From: a virus
IMG/VR virus record: IMGVR_UViG_3300010885_046521
Coordinates: 1 to 29,179 of that record
Length of the DNA: 29,179 nucleotides
Reading direction: 5' to 3' (one strand)
Shown here: positions 468 through 24,925 of the stretch, piece after piece
How the letters are laid out: each line of letters begins with the position of its first letter
Position numbering within the stretch: position 1 is the stretch's first letter
Program-made: the position numbers and the translations under genes
Notes under the pieces: generated by a model
What the model saw: the letters and a program-made list of their open reading frames with translations, nothing else
Told to the model about the DNA's origin: nothing
Databases searched by the model: none

Positions 468-866
468 TTAGTTCTGTCCGTTGCCGTGGCGCTTGAATGC
501 TGCACTAGCAGCAAGGAAGCCCGCTAGCTGCGCGTCTTGGTACGCTTCGTGAGTAGCCTCACTCGCGAGGTTTAGCTTGGGCTTGGTTCGATGCACGCCA
601 CCATTCAGCGCGAGGTCGATAGCCCATCGCACGTCTACTGCTTCGGCGTCCGTAGTTAGCGAGTTGCCGCCGTCAAAGACGAGCTGGGTAAGCTTCTCGC
701 CCTTGTAATACCCTGGATTGAGCTTCACCCAGAGCACCTTGTCAGCTCGGACCCATGCCCATCCGGCATCGTCCGACTCGTCAGGGTCTCCCTCGCCAAC
801 CCATATGGCGAACATGTGCGACCCGCCCGAGCTGTCTTGATACCCGCGAACGTATTCGCTCGCCAT
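468..866 (-). CDS. Hypothetical protein
   Basis: A 132-aa soluble protein whose ATG overlaps the SSB stop (TAATG arrangement), so it is likely co-translated with SSB. The N-terminal half is acidic and aromatic-rich (GEGDPDESDDAGWAWVRADKVLW). The C-terminal half looks helical and ends in basic and amide residues. No catalytic motif, zinc site or membrane span is visible. Its position directly behind SSB suggests a role in DNA metabolism or its control, but this is context only. Confidence 0.75.
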   Translation of the reverse strand: MASEYVRGYQDSSGGSHMFAIWVGEGDPDESDDAGWAWVRADKVLWVKLNPGYYKGEKLTQLVFDGGNSLTTDAEAVDVRWAIDLALNGGVHRTKPKLNLASEATHEAYQDAQLAGFLAASAAFKRHGNGQN

Positions 867-1252
867 TAGTAGAGGTTCCCATAGCCCAGATCGTCGCCCT
901 GGGTCGCGGGCTTCTCGCTGTTGCCGCCAGCCACTCCCAGGAAGCGCACAGTCTCGGCGACTACCTCCGTGGTGTAGCGGTCCTTGCCGTCCTTATCGGT
1001 CCACTTGCGCGTGGCCAGCCGGCCCTCGACGTAGACCTGTCGGCCCTTGGCCAGGTACTTACCGCACGCTTCGGCCTGCTTTCCCCAGACGACGACGGTA
1101 TGCCACTCGGTGGCTTCCTGCCGGTTGCCCTCGCGGTCCTTGTAGCTGGACGTGGTAGCCATGCGCAGTTGCGCAACGGACTGCCCGCTGGGCGTGGACT
1201 TCGTTTCGGGGTCTTGCCCGAGGTTGCCCACGAGCGTCACACGGTTGATCAT
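866..1252 (-). CDS. ssb: Single-stranded DNA-binding protein (SSB)
   Basis: A 128-aa bacterial-type SSB. Residues 1-110 form the OB fold: the start [16 protein letters not shown], the core around [15 protein letters not shown] and the strand [18 protein letters not shown] are family hallmarks. It should coat single-stranded DNA during phage replication and recombination. The linker is very short and the protein ends [10 protein letters not shown], without the acidic DDIPF-like tip that cellular SSBs use to recruit partners. Its ATG overlaps the stop of the 78-aa gene (ATGA), and it follows the replication initiator by one small gene, so it belongs to the replication operon. Confidence 0.95.
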
Positions 1253-1485
1253 CGTTCCTTCTCCTTCTTCGGTTTGAGCCCGAGCCTTTGCGCGGGCGGC
1301 ACATCGCCGTAGGGCGTGCGCCTTTGTGTGGACACGTAGCCCGAACAGCTAGGCGCGTCAGCGTAGACCCGCGCGAGGCCGTCAGGCGTGGGGCTCGCCC
1401 ACTCGGCAAGCCATGCGGCGGCGCTGTCGTATGGCGACGTGCAGGTACGTTCCCAGCGGCGACAGGTGAGGCAGTCGCCGGTCAT
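1249..1485 (-). CDS. Small hypothetical protein with N-terminal cysteines
   Basis: A 78-aa protein that overlaps the end of the initiator gene (ATGA) and the start of ssb (ATGA), which strongly supports translation. The start [15 protein letters not shown] carries three cysteines in a C-x2-C-x6-C pattern, with a fourth near residue 47 (PSCSGY), so a small metal-binding fold is possible. The end is strongly basic (KPKKEKER). No family is recognised. A helper of replication initiation is a guess from position only. Confidence 0.75.
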
Positions 1486-2450
1486 GCCGTTCGCCTGGAA
1501 GCCGCGGCTTCTTGCTCAGGCGTGAGCCAGCCCAGGGCGCGAAGCTCTGCCAGGTGATCGGCCTGGACCTCCAGCGGAGGCGGCGGTGCTGGGCTGGCCG
1601 CGACGGCCTCCTCCCGTTCCAGCATGCGCCTAGCCTCACGAGGCCGTATACCGATGTCCCGCGCGAGCTGGCGCACCAGGTCTGCTCTTGAGGCGCTCGG
1701 CAGTTCCGCAGGCAGGACAGGCGCGGCCACCTGGGCAGGCGCTGGCGCAGTTGGCCTCGCAAAGCGCGAACCCGGAGGCAGCTTCGCTCCCCTCATGCGC
1801 TCCGGAAGTTCAAACCCCGAAGGGCTCCCCTTCTGTTCCCCCCTGCTTGCAGGGGGGCTAGGGGGGTCGCTTGGCTCTGCTCGGTTCTGCTCGCTGTGGG
1901 GGTAAGGGGGATCTTCTGTACCTTCGGTGTAATCTCTGTGTAATGGGGGGACCGATTTGGCCCCCTCCCTGGGGACCGATTTGGCCCCCTCCCTGGGGAC
2001 TGCCTCGTGGGAGGGAGGGGACCGATTTGGCCCCCTCTGAGGGGACCGATTTAGCCCCCTCCCCCCTGGGGGGTGGGGACCGATTTGGCCCCCTCCCTCG
2101 TCTAGGGTGGGGACCGATTTTGCCCCCTCCCCCTGCAGCTCCACAGACGCCGGAATGGTGAGCCGGTAATGGCTCGCCGTCTGCCCCGCGCCTCGCGTGA
2201 CCTCGACTAGCCCGCCGGCCTCCAGGCGCTTGACGGCTTCCGGGATGTGGTCGCGAGCGATCCCCGTGTCTCTGGCGAGCGCCGCCATTCCCCAAGACCA
2301 GCCGTCGCGCTTCGCGTTGTAGCGCGAGAGCAGCACGAGGTAGACGCGCAGCGCCCGGAGCGGCAGGGCCTGGACCTCTTCGCATGCCGCGAGCTGGATG
2401 GGCACAATCCCAAAGGCGCCGCCGAGAAGACCGATGCTGCGCCGCCTCAC
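1482..2450 (-). CDS. Replication initiator-like protein with N-terminal winged helix and internal iterons
   Basis: A 322-aa protein starting at a GTG that overlaps the stop of the preceding small gene (GTGA). Residues about 25-105 look like a winged helix (LPLRALRVYLVLLSRYN, MAALARDTGIARDHIPEAVKRL, then a GLVEVTRG wing), as in phage and plasmid initiators. Residues about 107-190 are low-complexity and encoded by six 19-bp DNA repeats. A proline-rich linker follows, then a helical C-terminal part (ADLVRQLARDIGIRPREARRML). An initiator gene carrying its own origin repeats is the lambda O arrangement, with SSB downstream. The protein probably binds the repeats and loads host helicase. No helicase gene was seen in the window. 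Confidence 0.8.
   Translation of the reverse strand: MRRRSIGLLGGAFGIVPIQLAACEEVQALPLRALRVYLVLLSRYNAKRDGWSWGMAALARDTGIARDHIPEAVKRLEAGGLVEVTRGAGQTASHYRLTIPASVELQGEGAKSVPTLDEGGGQIGPHPPGGRGLNRSPQRGPNRSPPSHEAVPREGAKSVPREGAKSVPPLHRDYTEGTEDPPYPHSEQNRAEPSDPPSPPASRGEQKGSPSGFELPERMRGAKLPPGSRFARPTAPAPAQVAAPVLPAELPSASRADLVRQLARDIGIRPREARRMLEREEAVAASPAPPPPLEVQADHLAELRALGWLTPEQEAAASRRTA
1947..2127. repeat. Six iteron-like 19-bp repeats; candidate replication origin
   Basis: On the plus strand GGGGACCGATTTGGCCCCC occurs at 1947-1965, 1971-1989, 2017-2035 and 2075-2093; one-base variants are at 2041-2059 (TTTAG) and 2109-2127 (TTTTG). Starts are spaced 24, 46, 24, 34 and 34 bp. Each unit is an imperfect palindrome (GGGGACC against GGCCCCC). 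The peptide encoded differs with reading phase (GAKSVP, GGQIGP, LNRSP, PNRSP), so the DNA rather than the protein is conserved. A less GC-rich stretch with two GTGTAAT repeats 11 bp apart (1927-1944) borders the array on the side downstream in the gene, the place of the A+T-rich unwinding region in lambda ori. Confidence 0.85.
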
Positions 2451-6617: not shown

Positions 6618-7358
6618 ATGCACCTGCAATCAGAAACGATCGGCGAGCTGGCAAAGGCCCTCGCCCAGGCCCAAGGCGAGATGGGCGCGGCGGCAAAGGA
6701 CGCCTCTAATCCTCACTTCAAGAGCCGCTATGCGGACCTCGCGAGCATCATGGACGCATGCCGCGCTCCCCTGGCGCGTCACGGCCTCGCGGTGAGCCAG
6801 CTTCCCGCACGTCGCGAGGATGGTTCCGTCATGCTGACGACGCTCCTTATGCATTCCAGCGGGGAGTTCATCGGTAGCTACATGACGGCGAAGCCTGCCC
6901 AGGAGAACCCTCAGGTGCTGGGCTCGATGCTGACCTACCTCCGGCGCTATGCGCTCGCGTCTGTGGTCGGCGTCGTTTCAGACGACGACGACGGAGAGGC
7001 GGCGACGGCCCCCACGCGCAGGCCCGCCCAGGAGCCCCCCAGGGCGCCCGCAAGGCCCGAGCCTAGCCAGCGCCCGTCCGCTCCTCCTGCCGCGCTTGTA
7101 GAGGCCGTAGAGCGCGTGCAAACGCGAATGGGCGGGACGGCGGACTTCCACCGCTCGACCGATTGCCCGAAGTGCGGCGGTCCCATGTGGGACAACCGCG
7201 AGAAGAAGACGAACCCGAAGGCGCCCGACTTCAAGTGTCGCGACAAGGGATGCGACGGGACCATCTGGAAGTTCAAGGCGCCGCCCGAGCCTGTTCCCAT
7301 CCCCGGCGGCTTCCTGGAGCGCGACGGAAACGACTTCCCCGACGAAATCCCCTTCTAA
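6618..7358 (+). CDS. erf: ERF-family single-strand annealing protein with zinc ribbon and SSB-like acidic tip
   Basis: A 246-aa recombinase that anneals complementary single strands. The N-terminal ERF domain (about 1-122) contains the typical NPHFKSRYADLASIMDACRAPLARHGL (31-57) and YLRRYALASVVGVVSDDDDG. A proline/alanine-rich linker (130-160) follows, then a four-cysteine zinc ribbon (C183, C186, C207, C212). The last eight residues, DFPDEIPF, resemble the acidic tip of E. coli SSB (DFDDDIPF). The ATG follows a GGAG ribosome site. It is first in the rightward operon, with an exonuclease next to it, as in annealase-exonuclease recombination pairs. Confidence 0.93.
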   Translation: MHLQSETIGELAKALAQAQGEMGAAAKDASNPHFKSRYADLASIMDACRAPLARHGLAVSQLPARREDGSVMLTTLLMHSSGEFIGSYMTAKPAQENPQVLGSMLTYLRRYALASVVGVVSDDDDGEAATAPTRRPAQEPPRAPARPEPSQRPSAPPAALVEAVERVQTRMGGTADFHRSTDCPKCGGPMWDNREKKTNPKAPDFKCRDKGCDGTIWKFKAPPEPVPIPGGFLERDGNDFPDEIPF

Positions 7359-7369
7359 GGAGCTGACCC

Positions 7370-8110
7370 ATGCTGTTCATCGACATTGAAACCCTCCCCC
7401 CGCTCGGTTGGGACGACGCAAAGATCGACGCCTACGTGCGCGAGCGCGTCCCCGGAACCTTCAAGAAGCCTGAGAGTATTGCGCAATGGTGCGAGGAGAA
7501 CCGTACCGAGGTCTTCGCGCGTGCGGCCCTCGATTGGCGCGTGTCTCGCATCGCCTGTATCGGCGTGATCTATGACGACGGCGACACCGTCATGGAAGAC
7601 TGCTTTATGGGAGGCACGACAGACGCGCACGAGGCGCAGGCCCTCCGCAATCTGGACGACTTCCTGAGCGCAGCCGCGGCGCATGACGGCGCCGTGTGCG
7701 GGCACAACGTCCTGGGCTTCGACCTTCCCCGCCTGCACATCACGTCAGCGCGTGTCGGTAGCTCGCTCACGTCATGGCTCGCGCAGCTGTCGCGTCACTC
7801 TCGGTCGCGCGTGGTCGATACGATGCACCTCGCCTTCCCGACGCGCGAGCGCGTGGGCCTCGCGGACCTGGGGGAGGCGCTCGGCATCGGCGGGAAGTCC
7901 GGCCACGGAAGCGAAGTCCTGGCCATGTACACCGAGGGCCGTCACGGCGAGCTCATGCGCTACTGTCTCGCTGACGTGCGCCTGACGCGCGAGGTCTACC
8001 GCCGCCTATCCGGAGAGCTTCCGGCCTATGCGCCGACTACGCCTCTGCTGAACATGGATCGGTACCAGGTGGCGGCGCTGATCGATAACGCCATGCGGAG
8101 GGATGCATGA
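7370..8110 (+). CDS. DnaQ-like (DEDDy) 3'-5' exonuclease
   Basis: A 246-aa nuclease with the three exonuclease motifs of the RNase H-like DEDD superfamily: FIDIET at the start (D5, E7), GHNVLGFDLPRL (D118) and YCLAD with the tyrosine type (Y198, D202). It has no polymerase domain and most resembles the free-standing proteins related to the exonuclease part of family B polymerases. AAGGAG precedes the ATG, 11 bases after the ERF gene. It could make single strands for the annealase or trim ends. Strict 3'-5' polarity is inferred from the family. Confidence 0.9.
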   Translation: MLFIDIETLPPLGWDDAKIDAYVRERVPGTFKKPESIAQWCEENRTEVFARAALDWRVSRIACIGVIYDDGDTVMEDCFMGGTTDAHEAQALRNLDDFLSAAAAHDGAVCGHNVLGFDLPRLHITSARVGSSLTSWLAQLSRHSRSRVVDTMHLAFPTRERVGLADLGEALGIGGKSGHGSEVLAMYTEGRHGELMRYCLADVRLTREVYRRLSGELPAYAPTTPLLNMDRYQVAALIDNAMRRDA

Positions 8111-21711: not shown

Positions 21712-22472
21712 CAGTAAAACCCACCGAAGCGCGGGTAGCCGCCGCGGCCATTCAGCCACACGGTCGAGGAGCCCGCCTTCTTCGTGTTCGGGTTGATCTT
21801 GTTCTCGTCGGCCTCGTCGTAACTAAAGCGCAGCTGGTTCCACGCCTCGGTGTACATGCGCTGGTAGTGCTCGGCGAGGGCCTGCCAGCGCCCGCCGTCT
21901 CCGGCGCTTGTCTGGAAGTCGGTGAACACGAGCTGAAGCGTCAGCGCGAGGTGACAGTCGCGCATCGCGCTCGGCTGGATGATCAGGTAGGGTCGCCGGC
22001 CCTGCGCCACGAGGCGGTTCGTGATCGTGGCCCACGCTTCGTCGAGGTAGTCCTGATAGCTCGTCGTGCCCGTGGCAAGGAGCGACGGAAGGTCGGAGTG
22101 CCGCCGGAACAGGTCGGCGTCCGTCACCACTGGGTAGAGGGTTCGGCGCGTGAGTGCGGCATCCTGTCTAAACACATTCTGAACCGTCGCCGTCATTTGA
22201 AGGGTCCACTCGATGAGCCACCCCTCCTCGAGCGCGAGCGACGTGGTGGCGGTCCCCAGGAGGGCGTAGGTCGCCACGCTCCCGGTGATCGTCACAGCCG
22301 CGGCGTTGATCACGACCGTCCCGTCTGCACGGTAGATCGTGATCGTGCCGGAGAGCGGAGCCACGAGGGCACCCGCTCGGAAGATGGGGCACGTGAGGTC
22401 TTGGTTACGGCCACGCTCGATCGTCTCGCCAGAGCGGAACCGTGCCGTGTACAGCGTCTCGCTGATGCTCAT
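21711..22472 (-). CDS. Head-tail connector or neck protein
   Basis: A 253-aa protein in the connector position. Residues about 1-95 are beta-type (LTCPIFRAGALVAPLSGTITIYRADGTVVINAAAVTI); residues 115-215 are helical (DADLFRRHSDLPSLL, YQDYLDEAWATITNRLVAQG, WQALAEHYQRMYTEAWNQLRF), like head-tail adaptor proteins. The end is Gly-rich (LNGRGGYPRFGGFY). I infer an adaptor from position and the helical part; no family is certain. Confidence 0.7.
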   Translation of the reverse strand: MSISETLYTARFRSGETIERGRNQDLTCPIFRAGALVAPLSGTITIYRADGTVVINAAAVTITGSVATYALLGTATTSLALEEGWLIEWTLQMTATVQNVFRQDAALTRRTLYPVVTDADLFRRHSDLPSLLATGTTSYQDYLDEAWATITNRLVAQGRRPYLIIQPSAMRDCHLALTLQLVFTDFQTSAGDGGRWQALAEHYQRMYTEAWNQLRFSYDEADENKINPNTKKAGSSTVWLNGRGGYPRFGGFY

Positions 22473-22488
22473 CGTGCCCCCCTCGCCG

Positions 22489-22629
22489 TCACTTATCGCG
22501 TTCGCGACGATCGGCCTTCTGCGCTCTCTCGCGTGCGATCTGCTCGGCGCGCTGCGTCGGCATCCCGCCCTCGACGAGGCGGCGCGTCATGGCGTCCTTC
22601 GCCGCTGCGATGTCCTTACGCTCGCTCAC
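22489..22629 (-). CDS. Small charged protein in the connector region
   Basis: A 46-aa frame MSERKDIAAAKDAMTRRLV... ending RRERDK. Its GTG overlaps the stop of the 208-aa gene (GTGA), and it fills the only gap between that gene and the connector. It is one long charged helix. A small head protein or an assembly helper is possible; there is no family match. Confidence 0.55.
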   Translation of the reverse strand: MSERKDIAAAKDAMTRRLVEGGMPTQRAEQIARERAQKADRRERDK

Positions 22630-23252
22630 GCCTTCGTCCTCTTGGCGGGAGTATACATGCGGTCGGTCGCCGCGCGCATCTCATCGAGGCGCTTCTGCTC
22701 GACCGGCAGCGCGAGGGCGCTACCCGGATGCGTGGGCGCGCGCGTCTGATGCTCGGTCACTCGGCGCTCCTGACGCTCCACCAGCACGCCGATGAAGTCG
22801 GGATCCGGGATCTTGATGATGCCGTCCGCGACGAGGCGCCGCAGGAACGCACGGTAGCCCTCGGTGTCGACCGTCATGCGGGTCTGCCCCGCGACGAGCT
22901 TGGGCTTCTCCCACTTCGACAGGAACACGGGACCGTTCGCCCCCGCATACTGCACACAGTAGCCGCCCGGCTCGATCTCCCACGGGACGACCGTCATACC
23001 CTTCTTGCCCAGGTGCACCTCCGCGAGCGCCGTGTCGCCGTTCTTGTCCACCCTGTTCAGACCAGGGATCGCAACCATCTGCCCGAGGTCGGGAAGCCAC
23101 TCGCCCTCGACGCACTGCCAATGTCCCGGATGGTGGGTATACCACCACGCCGCGTTGCTCGGCATGTTGAGCATGGTTGCCATGCCCTGCGGGCGAGAGG
23201 CGGGTTGAGCGGCGAAGGTGCCGCCGTCAGATGCCGTGAAGTTCGCAGCCAT
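22626..23252 (-). CDS. Head-associated hypothetical protein
   Basis: A 208-aa protein from the ATG with AAGGGAGA upstream (MAANFTASDGGTFAAQP); a GTG six codons earlier lies inside a hairpin and is less likely. The central part is beta-rich (GEWLPDLGQMVAIPGLNRVDKNGD, KGMTVVPWEIEPGGYCVQYAGANGPVFL), followed by a helical C-terminal region (DTEGYRAFLRRLVADGI, EQKRLDEMRAATDRM). It directly follows the major capsid gene, a common place for minor head or neck proteins. No family is recognised. Confidence 0.7.
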   Translation of the reverse strand: MAANFTASDGGTFAAQPASRPQGMATMLNMPSNAAWWYTHHPGHWQCVEGEWLPDLGQMVAIPGLNRVDKNGDTALAEVHLGKKGMTVVPWEIEPGGYCVQYAGANGPVFLSKWEKPKLVAGQTRMTVDTEGYRAFLRRLVADGIIKIPDPDFIGVLVERQERRVTEHQTRAPTHPGSALALPVEQKRLDEMRAATDRMYTPAKRTKA

Positions 23253-23266
23253 TGAGTCTCCCTTAC

Positions 23267-23329
23267 GCACGAAGGCGTGCCCGTACCATAAGCACGGACA
23301 CGCCCCGATGCTAGGCGGCAGCGCCTAGC
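23267..23329. terminator. Hairpins behind the major capsid gene
   Basis: GCTAGGCG (23310-23317) pairs with CGCCTAGC (23322-23329), an 8-bp stem with a 4-base loop, starting 7 bases after the capsid stop. A second short stem (23267-23271 with 23276-23280) lies next to the following gene. No T run follows, so RNA stabilisation or partial termination is as likely as full termination. Confidence 0.55.
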
Positions 23330-23335
23330 AGGCCA

Positions 23336-24262
23336 TCACAGGTCGCTGACGATGCCAACGCCCTTGAGGTCCTGCAGCTCGGCGACGCCGAGGAACGAGG
23401 ACCCGACGACCTTGGTCAGACCCGAGGCGGCGTCACGTTCCCACTCGACAGCCACGGGGGCGCCGGCCGGGATGATCACGCCGCCAGCCGCCTGGATGGG
23501 CGCCGGGGTGCCGAGGGCGTAGGCGATCGCGCCGTTGCCGAGCATCATCCCGCGGTAGTCCGCGCCCGCGTTGGCCGTAGGGACGAAGCTGGAAACGTGG
23601 ACGTTGACGCCAAATAGCTTTCCCTTCAGGCTGGAACCCATAGCGGAAGTCTGCTCCTGATTGGCGGCGATGTACTGCGCCGGGCCAACCTCAACACGGA
23701 GGCTGCTCATCAGGTCGTTGTACTGCTGCGGGTGCAGGATGCAGTCGTACTCGCCCATGACGCTCTGAAGCTGGAGGGCGAAGATCGCATCGTAGAACGT
23801 GTCCGTCGTGAGGTCCACAGTCGTCGTCCCAACCTGCGTCGAGAAGCCGCTGGAGAGCGCACACGCGAGCTGGTTGAAGCGACCGTTGAACGCCGTCACC
23901 ATCGCGTTGGTGAGGCCCTCGAGGTCCACGCCGCCCGGAACGGAGTTGGAGATCCGCGCGAGGTCGGTGAGGTCGTAGCGCAGCGCCTGACGCGCCACCA
24001 CGACCGTCGCCGCAGCGGAGGTGATCGAGGTGTTGCTGACGCTCACGCCGTCGCCGGGGGCGCTCATAATGTCGGTACCGTTGAGGCCGACGACGGGCAC
24101 CTGGATGCTGTCGCTGCCGGTGCCGTTGACCGACCCGACATTCAGAAAGCAGGGGGCGTTGCGAAGGCTTCCGGTGTCGGCAAGCTTCATCACGATCGAC
24201 TGATAGAGAACCGCGGCTACGCGGGCGTTGCCGTCGAGAGCGGCAAAATCGATATTGGCCAT
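23336..24262 (-). CDS. Major capsid protein
   Basis: A 308-aa protein, MANIDFAALDGNARVAAVLYQ..., directly behind the scaffold gene and with one of the strongest ribosome sites in the window (AGGAGG). Helical N-terminal part, then alternating strands and helices; segments such as DCILHPQQYNDLMSSLR and SSLKGKLFGVNVHVSSFVPTANAGADYRGMMLGNGAIAYAL are typical of HK97-fold capsid proteins of the smaller type. It should form the icosahedral shell. Hairpins on both sides suggest that it is expressed at its own level. Confidence 0.88.
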   Translation of the reverse strand: MANIDFAALDGNARVAAVLYQSIVMKLADTGSLRNAPCFLNVGSVNGTGSDSIQVPVVGLNGTDIMSAPGDGVSVSNTSITSAAATVVVARQALRYDLTDLARISNSVPGGVDLEGLTNAMVTAFNGRFNQLACALSSGFSTQVGTTTVDLTTDTFYDAIFALQLQSVMGEYDCILHPQQYNDLMSSLRVEVGPAQYIAANQEQTSAMGSSLKGKLFGVNVHVSSFVPTANAGADYRGMMLGNGAIAYALGTPAPIQAAGGVIIPAGAPVAVEWERDAASGLTKVVGSSFLGVAELQDLKGVGIVSDL

Positions 24263-24329
24263 AGTGGCCTCCTAGAGAGGTTCGAGGTTTGCCGCGCCTA
24301 TCGCTGTTGACGGGAGTTCGGCCCGAGCG

Positions 24330-24347
24330 CGTGGGGTTGCCCCCACG
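24330..24347. promoter_or_regulatory. Hairpin between scaffold and capsid genes
   Basis: CGTGGGG (24330-24336) pairs with CCCCACG (24341-24347) over a TTGC loop. It lies near the expected start point of a possible capsid promoter and in the capsid mRNA leader if transcription comes from upstream. No T run follows on the minus strand. Confidence 0.45.
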
Positions 24348-24350
24348 GCT

Positions 24351-24380
24351 ACCTTACGCCGCTCTGTGACAGACTGTCAA
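24351..24380 (-). promoter_or_regulatory. Candidate capsid promoter with palindromic -35 region
   Basis: On the minus strand TTGACA (24380-24375) is followed after 18 bases by TAAGGT (24356-24351). The -35 is perfect, the -10 a 3/6 match. A perfect 13-bp palindrome, TGACAGACTGTCA (24367-24379), covers the -35 and could bind a regulator. It overlaps the end of the scaffold gene. Confidence 0.35.
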
Positions 24381-24925
24381 GGCGTGCGGATCGCCGCCTG
24401 AATCGCGGCCGCGTTTGCTTTGTACTCGGCCGGCGTGAGGCGCATGATCGCCTCGGGCGTCCACGTCGTCGTCGCCGGGGGCGTCTGCGTCACGGTCCCG
24501 GCGTTGCTCTTGGGGAGCGGTGCTCCCACGGCGGGAGCGGCTGCGGGAGCCGGGGCCTCGGGCAGGTACGCGCGCACCGCCTTCGGCAGGTTGTCCTTGT
24601 TGCCGAGCCACTCCGCGAGCGGTGGGCGACCCTCAGACGGGAGGCGCGAGTACGCGTGCTGCACGTACTCCATGCCCTCGGCGTCGGTGATCCCCGCGGC
24701 CGAGATCTCGCGCTCGATGCGGAGCGCCTCGCGCTCTGCCTTGCTCGCAGCCTTCGCCTCCTCGACCTGCGCCTTGTACTTCTCAGCAGACTCGGCCAGC
24801 GGCGCCAGCTCGCCGACGCGGCCCTCGAGCTCCTTCACGCGTGCGACCAGCTGACGGATGCGCGCTGCCGCTCCACCGTCGCCGCCCTCGGTCGTGGTCG
24901 TGGTCGTCGTTACTTCTTCGCTCAT
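24377..24925 (-). CDS. Scaffold protein
   Basis: A 182-aa protein starting MSEEVTTTTTTTEGGDGG; its ATG overlaps the preceding stop (ATGA), and a longer frame to 25402 is a shadow of neighbouring genes. Residues 20-75 form a long charged coiled coil (AARIRQLVARVKELEGRVGELAPLAESAEKYKAQVEEAKAASKAEREAL). A Pro/Ala-rich linker and a helical end (PEAIMRLTPAEYKANAAAIQAAI) follow. This is the usual design of phage scaffolds directly upstream of the capsid gene. It would be expelled or cleaved during head maturation. Confidence 0.85.
   Translation of the reverse strand: MSEEVTTTTTTTEGGDGGAAARIRQLVARVKELEGRVGELAPLAESAEKYKAQVEEAKAASKAEREALRIEREISAAGITDAEGMEYVQHAYSRLPSEGRPPLAEWLGNKDNLPKAVRAYLPEAPAPAAAPAVGAPLPKSNAGTVTQTPPATTTWTPEAIMRLTPAEYKANAAAIQAAIRTP

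Follow-up and report, generated by a model that had tools for sequence, protein, structure and literature searches.

A zinc ribbon and an SSB-like acidic tip recur together on ERF-family phage annealases

The viral window analyzed here, i.e., the whole 29,179-nt stretch of IMG/VR record IMGVR_UViG_3300010885_046521, encodes an ERF-family single-strand annealing protein as well as a single-stranded DNA-binding protein (SSB). A preceding sequence-only reading had noted that the annealase ends in an SSB-like acidic tip that the phage's own SSB lacks, and had proposed that the recruitment of partner proteins may have moved from the SSB to the annealase. We asked whether this placement of the tip is an accident of one sequence or a pattern of the family, and which role it suggests. 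Both starting observations hold: the annealase ends in ...NDFPDEIPF behind a Cys4 ribbon, and the SSB has a short degenerate tail without a DFPDEIPF-like tip. The respective features are compiled in Table 1.

Table 1. Features of the window, with the evidence for each.
Feature	Position	Strand	Evidence
Phage SSB, OB-fold family, 128 aa, degenerate tail	866..1252	-	PF00436 E 1e-39; tail compared with relatives
Replication-initiator-like protein adjoining the SSB	1482..2450	-	phrog_270 E 2e-7; synteny comparison
ERF-family single-strand annealing protein, 246 aa	6618..7358	+	PF04404, phrog_2324; nearest solved structure Gp77 (9y6u) by sequence and fold
ERF/Rad52-fold annealing core, residues 12-137 by Pfam (about 1-137)	6651..7028	+	Pfam match; AlphaFold pLDDT about 90 over residues 1-120
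Pro/Ala-rich linker, one short helix (residues 158-170)	7029..7163	+	alignments; low pLDDT and helix call
Predicted Cys4 zinc ribbon CPKCGGPMWDNREKKTNPKAPDFKCRDKGC, residues 183-212	7164..7253	+	sequence; conserved in relatives and other annealase families
Variable flexible linker, residues 213-238	7254..7331	+	low pLDDT from about residue 221; high column entropy
SSB-like acidic tip DFPDEIPF, residues 239-246	7332..7355	+	sequence; conserved in relatives
DnaQ/PolB-type 3'-5' exonuclease gene directly 3' of the annealase gene, 12 bp gap	7370..8110	+	PF10108 E 2e-10

The annealase matches PF04404 in the Pfam scan (E 4e-25, 88.9 bits versus a cut-off of 25) and the Erf-like family phrog_2324 of PHROGs (7e-42). 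Its predicted fold agrees with Gp77 (9y6u) at a TM-score of 0.78 by target and more weakly with RAD52, i.e., a Rad52-like fold is predicted. The annealing core is thus common, by sequence and predicted fold, to the known Erf-like annealases (PF04404, phrog_2324, Gp77). Most of these have, in contrast, neither ribbon nor tip, while an adjacent SSB is often tipped. In the alignments, the Pro/Ala-rich linker of the window annealase stands where ribbonless ERFs have their C-terminal region. It is followed by the predicted ribbon with its four cysteines (CPKC-x20-CRDKGC), which is modeled fairly confidently (pLDDT about 76-84, residues 181-220) and for which no curated match to a topoisomerase/reverse-gyrase zinc ribbon was found, all Pfam/NCBIfam scores being sub-threshold. 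The tail behind it is disordered in the AlphaFold model (mean pLDDT 46-55, residues 221-246).

DFPDEIPF has the makeup of the bacterial SSB C-terminus (SSB-Ct, DDDIPF), i.e., acidic residues and then a hydrophobic residue-P-F at the C-terminal end, with a preceding linker that is disordered in both cases (here judged by pLDDT). The bacterial SSB-Ct, however, sits on an OB-fold SSB and the annealase tip on a Rad52-fold protein with a predicted zinc ribbon. The OB-fold domain (PF00436) was not found in the annealase, whose sole Pfam match is ERF. That is, the annealase is not an SSB, but may have the hub-like role of one.

To see how far the arrangement extends, we used a set of 146 distinct ERF sequences from annotated phages, IMG/VR and genomes; the ERF search kept 80 of 594 matches. 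The tip is present in 45/47 ERFs with ribbon versus 1/99 without. The ribbon, already placed ahead of the tip by the sequence-only reading, is thus tightly coupled to it, and an occurrence by chance in only one sequence is excluded. Respective Fisher tests give 5e-34 for all sequences and 8e-23 for representatives, both ignoring relatedness; these p-values overstate independence, since the ribbon ERFs fall into few lineages, while other annealase families repeat the pattern (see below). On the tree of ERF cores, parsimony places 5 ribbon changes, and at least 2 are forced by supported branches; a test of phylogenetically independent pairs on this tree found too few pairs and has no power. Among the ribbonless ERFs, one (L280:2995-3873) has a different cysteine-containing C-terminal extension that ends in the tip GGDDEIPF; a tipped annealase may have arisen independently there.

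Nearly all relatives with the ribbon, to identities as low as about 50%, retain the tip. Tails of the IMG/VR relatives vary (DFPDEIPF, PPDEIPF, SDDDIPF, TDDDMPF, DEDGPGFPF, DEEIPY), yet acidic residues and then P-F/Y are retained throughout. When the tails are aligned at their right ends, the entropy is 0.24 bits at P (-2) and 1.0 bit at F/Y (-1), compared to about 2.4-3.4 bits at positions -8 to -30. That is, the variable linker is followed by two final residues that hardly change, and this contrast holds without treating lineages as independent. In shuffled versions of the last 40 residues, a tip arises in 0.35% of cases versus 81% observed. Furthermore, among 12,224 ORFs outside the SSB and ribbon-bearing groups, only 62 have a tip ending, many of them being mini-SSBs beside tipless ERFs, and no window ORF of 60 aa or more other than the ERF ends in a tip. 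The ribbon-tip counts, the shuffling and the tail entropy together rule out a chance origin of the tip.

We also compared where the tip is found in loci with and without a tipped annealase. Annotated phage records supplied 19 loci, in which no ERF but 6/7 recognized SSBs are tipped; one further tip-bearing SSB of these loci, from Escherichia phage BrunoManser, was missed by the SSB query. Of 90 representative tipless ribbonless ERFs, 55 are accompanied within 3 kb by a same-strand ORF that ends in a tip, in most cases immediately downstream, while such a neighbor within 3 kb was found for 0/26 ERFs with ribbon and tip. The difference also holds for loci with at least 1.5 kb of downstream sequence (41/58 versus 0/25), all of these counts carrying the same relatedness caveat as the ribbon-tip p-values. 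The tip-bearing neighbors are mostly SSBs or proteins of about 85 residues that are ssDNA-binding in PHROGs. This agrees with a published neighborhood survey, in which almost 80% of Firmicutes phage erf genes are associated with ssb (PMC8093625).

The simplest reading of these gene arrangements is of the 'Rosetta-stone' type: most phages would have a separate annealase and tip-bearing SSB, while here one fused annealase-ribbon-tip protein would combine both. The counts support a tip on the annealase instead of on a neighboring SSB as a family pattern. The sequence-only reading had called for a survey of ERF endings and of SSBs in the same genomes; in our set, the tip recurs on ribbon ERFs, with no tipped neighbor within 3 kb. 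Its proposal that a recruiting role may have moved from SSB to annealase is supported in this family-wide form as regards the placement of the tip, but not as a transfer from the window SSB, for reasons given below.

Three observations on neighboring proteins are recorded here for their own sake. Beside ribbonless ERF genes, mini-SSBs with a length of about 80-110 aa end in DDxPF (L250:3420-3677, L295:3633-3878, L318:4230-4514 and many more); they are ssDNA-binding according to PHROGs, and those scanned have no Pfam match over the cut-off. Several phage SSBs (L216, L220, L214, L241, L204, L215 and others) run 8-20 residues past an internal DDDIPF, e.g., DDDIPFAPATLPFPRHTIHAI; a buried SSB tip would be odd. 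In a Clostridioides difficile phage, a function-unassigned protein of 299 aa (phrog_2367, L059:154-1053) upstream of the ERF ends in SDDDVPF.

Turning to the window SSB, a 95%-identical SSB ends in GDDLGYGIPY and the next five relatives in DDLGYGNGPW, such that its clade points to a degenerate tip, not to an abrupt loss. Degenerate tails of this kind (GIPY, GNGPW) are found on the closest SSBs, among them those of the ribbon-ERF contigs L169 and L170, which fits a relaxed need for an SSB tip but would not prove it. Among 36 records, many of them fragments, only the window and a near-identical contig have both a ribbon ERF and a PF00436 SSB. The two remaining records with an SSB (L032, L033) combine a ribbonless tipless ERF with an SSB ending in DDIPF. 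Several SSB-less records of about 30 kb, i.e., near-full-length, keep the ERF tip. Relative to the window, one of them (G007, 30.1 kb) is a circular permutation and therefore spans both the window ends and the position of the SSB. Window positions 1 and 29179 adjoin in G007, so the window record is probably near-complete.

In the SSB-less relatives, primase- and helicase-like proteins appear to replace the initiator-like protein and the SSB. This swap of the replication module within one phage family is located at window positions 866-2450 versus 22343-24537 in G007 and 22545-24905 in G002. In the window and five relatives checked, the ERF is the sole recognizable tip carrier, apart from a doubtful 123-residue ORF of G017 ending in MMSPY. 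The ERF tip is thus kept with or without an SSB, since the SSB-less near-full-length relatives are tipped as well. Together with the swapped module, these relatives rule out a transfer of the tip from the window SSB as an explanation for the family.

The window annealase has a portable ribbon-linker-tip cassette in place of the usual ERF C-terminal region. Given these patterns, we consider it slightly favored, at a probability of roughly 55%, that host proteins whose usual docking site is the host SSB are recruited by the tail. SSB tips dock many genome-maintenance proteins. The annealase would sit on ssDNA where phage DNA is replicated or recombined, and its tip would there fill the SSB-tip pockets of host proteins such as RecO, PriA, RecQ or ExoI. 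These would so be brought to the annealing complex, and the phage SSB tail would not be needed. The ribbon may add a further ssDNA contact, such that the annealase would do part of the job that a separate SSB does beside other ERFs.

The tip might instead dock a protein of the phage itself, the foremost candidate being the exonuclease whose gene lies 12 bp downstream, as in the two-component recombinase of lambda exonuclease and Red-beta. A DnaQ/PolB-type exonuclease follows 18/47 ribbon ERFs versus 1/99 ribbonless ones, and E. coli ExoI, which binds the SSB tip, is itself a DnaQ-fold nuclease. In other ribbon-ERF clades, however, the tip persists although no exonuclease of this type was detected downstream, and the tip is also found on proteins of bacterial genomes. 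The former makes a phage exonuclease unlikely as a universal tip partner and points to a host partner, and we regard docking to a phage protein as improbable.

The ribbon and tip are also found beyond ERF proteins. Matches of a ribbon-only search comprise ERF proteins, a Rad52/22 protein (L104), a Sak4-like AAA protein (L108), a tipless RecT protein (L037/L109) and two uncharacterized families (L103/L110, L105). A search of 50,697 annotated phage records did not recover the ribbon. In genomes, 15/16 matches are from Gemmatimonadota. Gemmatimonadota Rad52-type proteins end in x-P-F in 14/16 cases with ribbon versus 1/14 without, the latter being a doubtful ORF assignment; no such ribbon-Rad52 protein was found in the viral contigs searched. 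One RecT and one Sak4-type protein of this phylum carry both ribbon and tip, and a ribbonless Sak4-type protein (L377) is tipped as well. The SSBs of Gemmatimonadota end in DDDLPF in 11/11 loci read (DEDDDLPF). Of 246 Planctomycetota genomes, the sole match was the one that encodes the previously found L111 ERF.

Gemmatimonadaceae furthermore encode a stand-alone protein of 160-225 residues that consists of two tandem predicted zinc ribbons and a DDDDLPF-type tip. This uncharacterized double-ribbon protein is located at L113:5926-6495, L115:5971-6465, L116:5959-6474 and in other loci, with a similar chromosomal neighborhood in these three; one of its neighbors resembles what we take to be TldD/PmbA. 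As a tentative extension, which we consider rather doubtful, zinc ribbon, linker and SSB tip could form a portable cassette that serves as an in-cis, OB-fold-free SSB substitute, fused to ERF-, Rad52-, RecT- and Sak4-type annealases or alone as the double-ribbon protein, and that reverses the usual polarity of an annealase engaging the SSB tail. With regard to the host of the phage, the sole plasmid match of the ribbon is from Gemmatirosa, and a terminase search in 298 Gemmatimonadota genomes gave one marginal match only. The window SSB scores best against NF005406/PRK06958, presumably a Burkholderia-type model.

The bacterial proteins also bear on a competition of the annealase with the host SSB for its partners, as raised by the sequence-only reading. 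As a decoy, the annealase would strip the host SSB of partners, such that host repair or defense would be weakened and no helper recruited to phage DNA. The tip type is the same as that of bacterial SSBs, and one tip per subunit would make the annealase multivalent if it forms rings as other ERFs do. Since bacterial Rad52-type and double-ribbon proteins share the cassette, it is not only an anti-host device, and we give the decoy little credence.

Regulation within the annealase itself is a further candidate. Here, the acidic tip would mimic DNA, fold back on the core or ribbon of its own or an adjacent subunit and be freed by ssDNA binding, as proposed for the SSB tail. The annealase tail is acidic and disordered in the model, and the E. 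coli SSB tail weakly contacts its own DNA-binding site according to a report as cited in another paper. On the other hand, it is the P-F end that is most conserved, not acidity alone, tip and ribbon occur on several different cores, and an exclusion with tip-bearing SSB neighbors is not expected from autoregulation, which we thus consider unlikely.

The recruitment of host proteins is supported by the conserved P-F end, the disordered tail, the exclusion of tipped neighbors and the recurrence of the coupling on Rad52-, RecT- and Sak4-type proteins. The near-full-length relatives that are tipped without an SSB and the DEDDDLPF endings of Gemmatimonadota SSBs add to this. In the cultured systems Sak4/SSB-HK620 (PMC5928155) and Sak-80alpha/SSB-80alpha (PMC11846896), the annealase depends on the SSB tail to cooperate efficiently with the SSB, which also speaks for recruitment, though there the tail is on a separate SSB and in the window phage on the annealase. 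The Sak-80alpha C-terminus has been proposed to engage the acidic tail of SSB-80alpha (PMC11846896), and the C-terminus of lambda Red-beta interacts with SSB. This polarity would be reversed in the window phage, which counts against recruitment. A Red-beta-like C-terminal domain is common to several annealase families (PMC8093625), i.e., it is likewise a C-terminal module apparently shuffled among annealases, but it is helical and HTH-like instead of a ribbon with tip.

A description of the ribbon-tip cassette was not found in the open-access literature. The Deinococcus annealase DdrB, however, has been described with an SSB-like C-terminal motif that was later reported unnecessary for radioresistance (PMC3834827), which tempers both the claim of recruitment and its novelty. 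Judged by description, DdrB resembles the window annealase as a non-SSB annealing protein with such a motif. To our knowledge, it has a different fold and no known zinc ribbon. An SSB-type tail on an annealase is thus already known, and the ribbon-tip coupling on ERF is a variant of it. The dispensable DdrB motif and the few independent origins on the ERF tree would also suit a tip of little present function, inherited by descent in few lineages or serving solubility only. Given that the last two residues are constrained behind a freely varying linker, and that the tip recurs on several annealase families, we consider this very improbable.

How annealases and SSBs work together is a key open question in phage recombination and in recombineering. 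Natural annealases with an SSB tail of their own, often in genomes without a phage SSB, let the importance of this tail be tested directly. Tipped annealases are also a natural comparison for the question why the success of an annealase depends on the bacterium.
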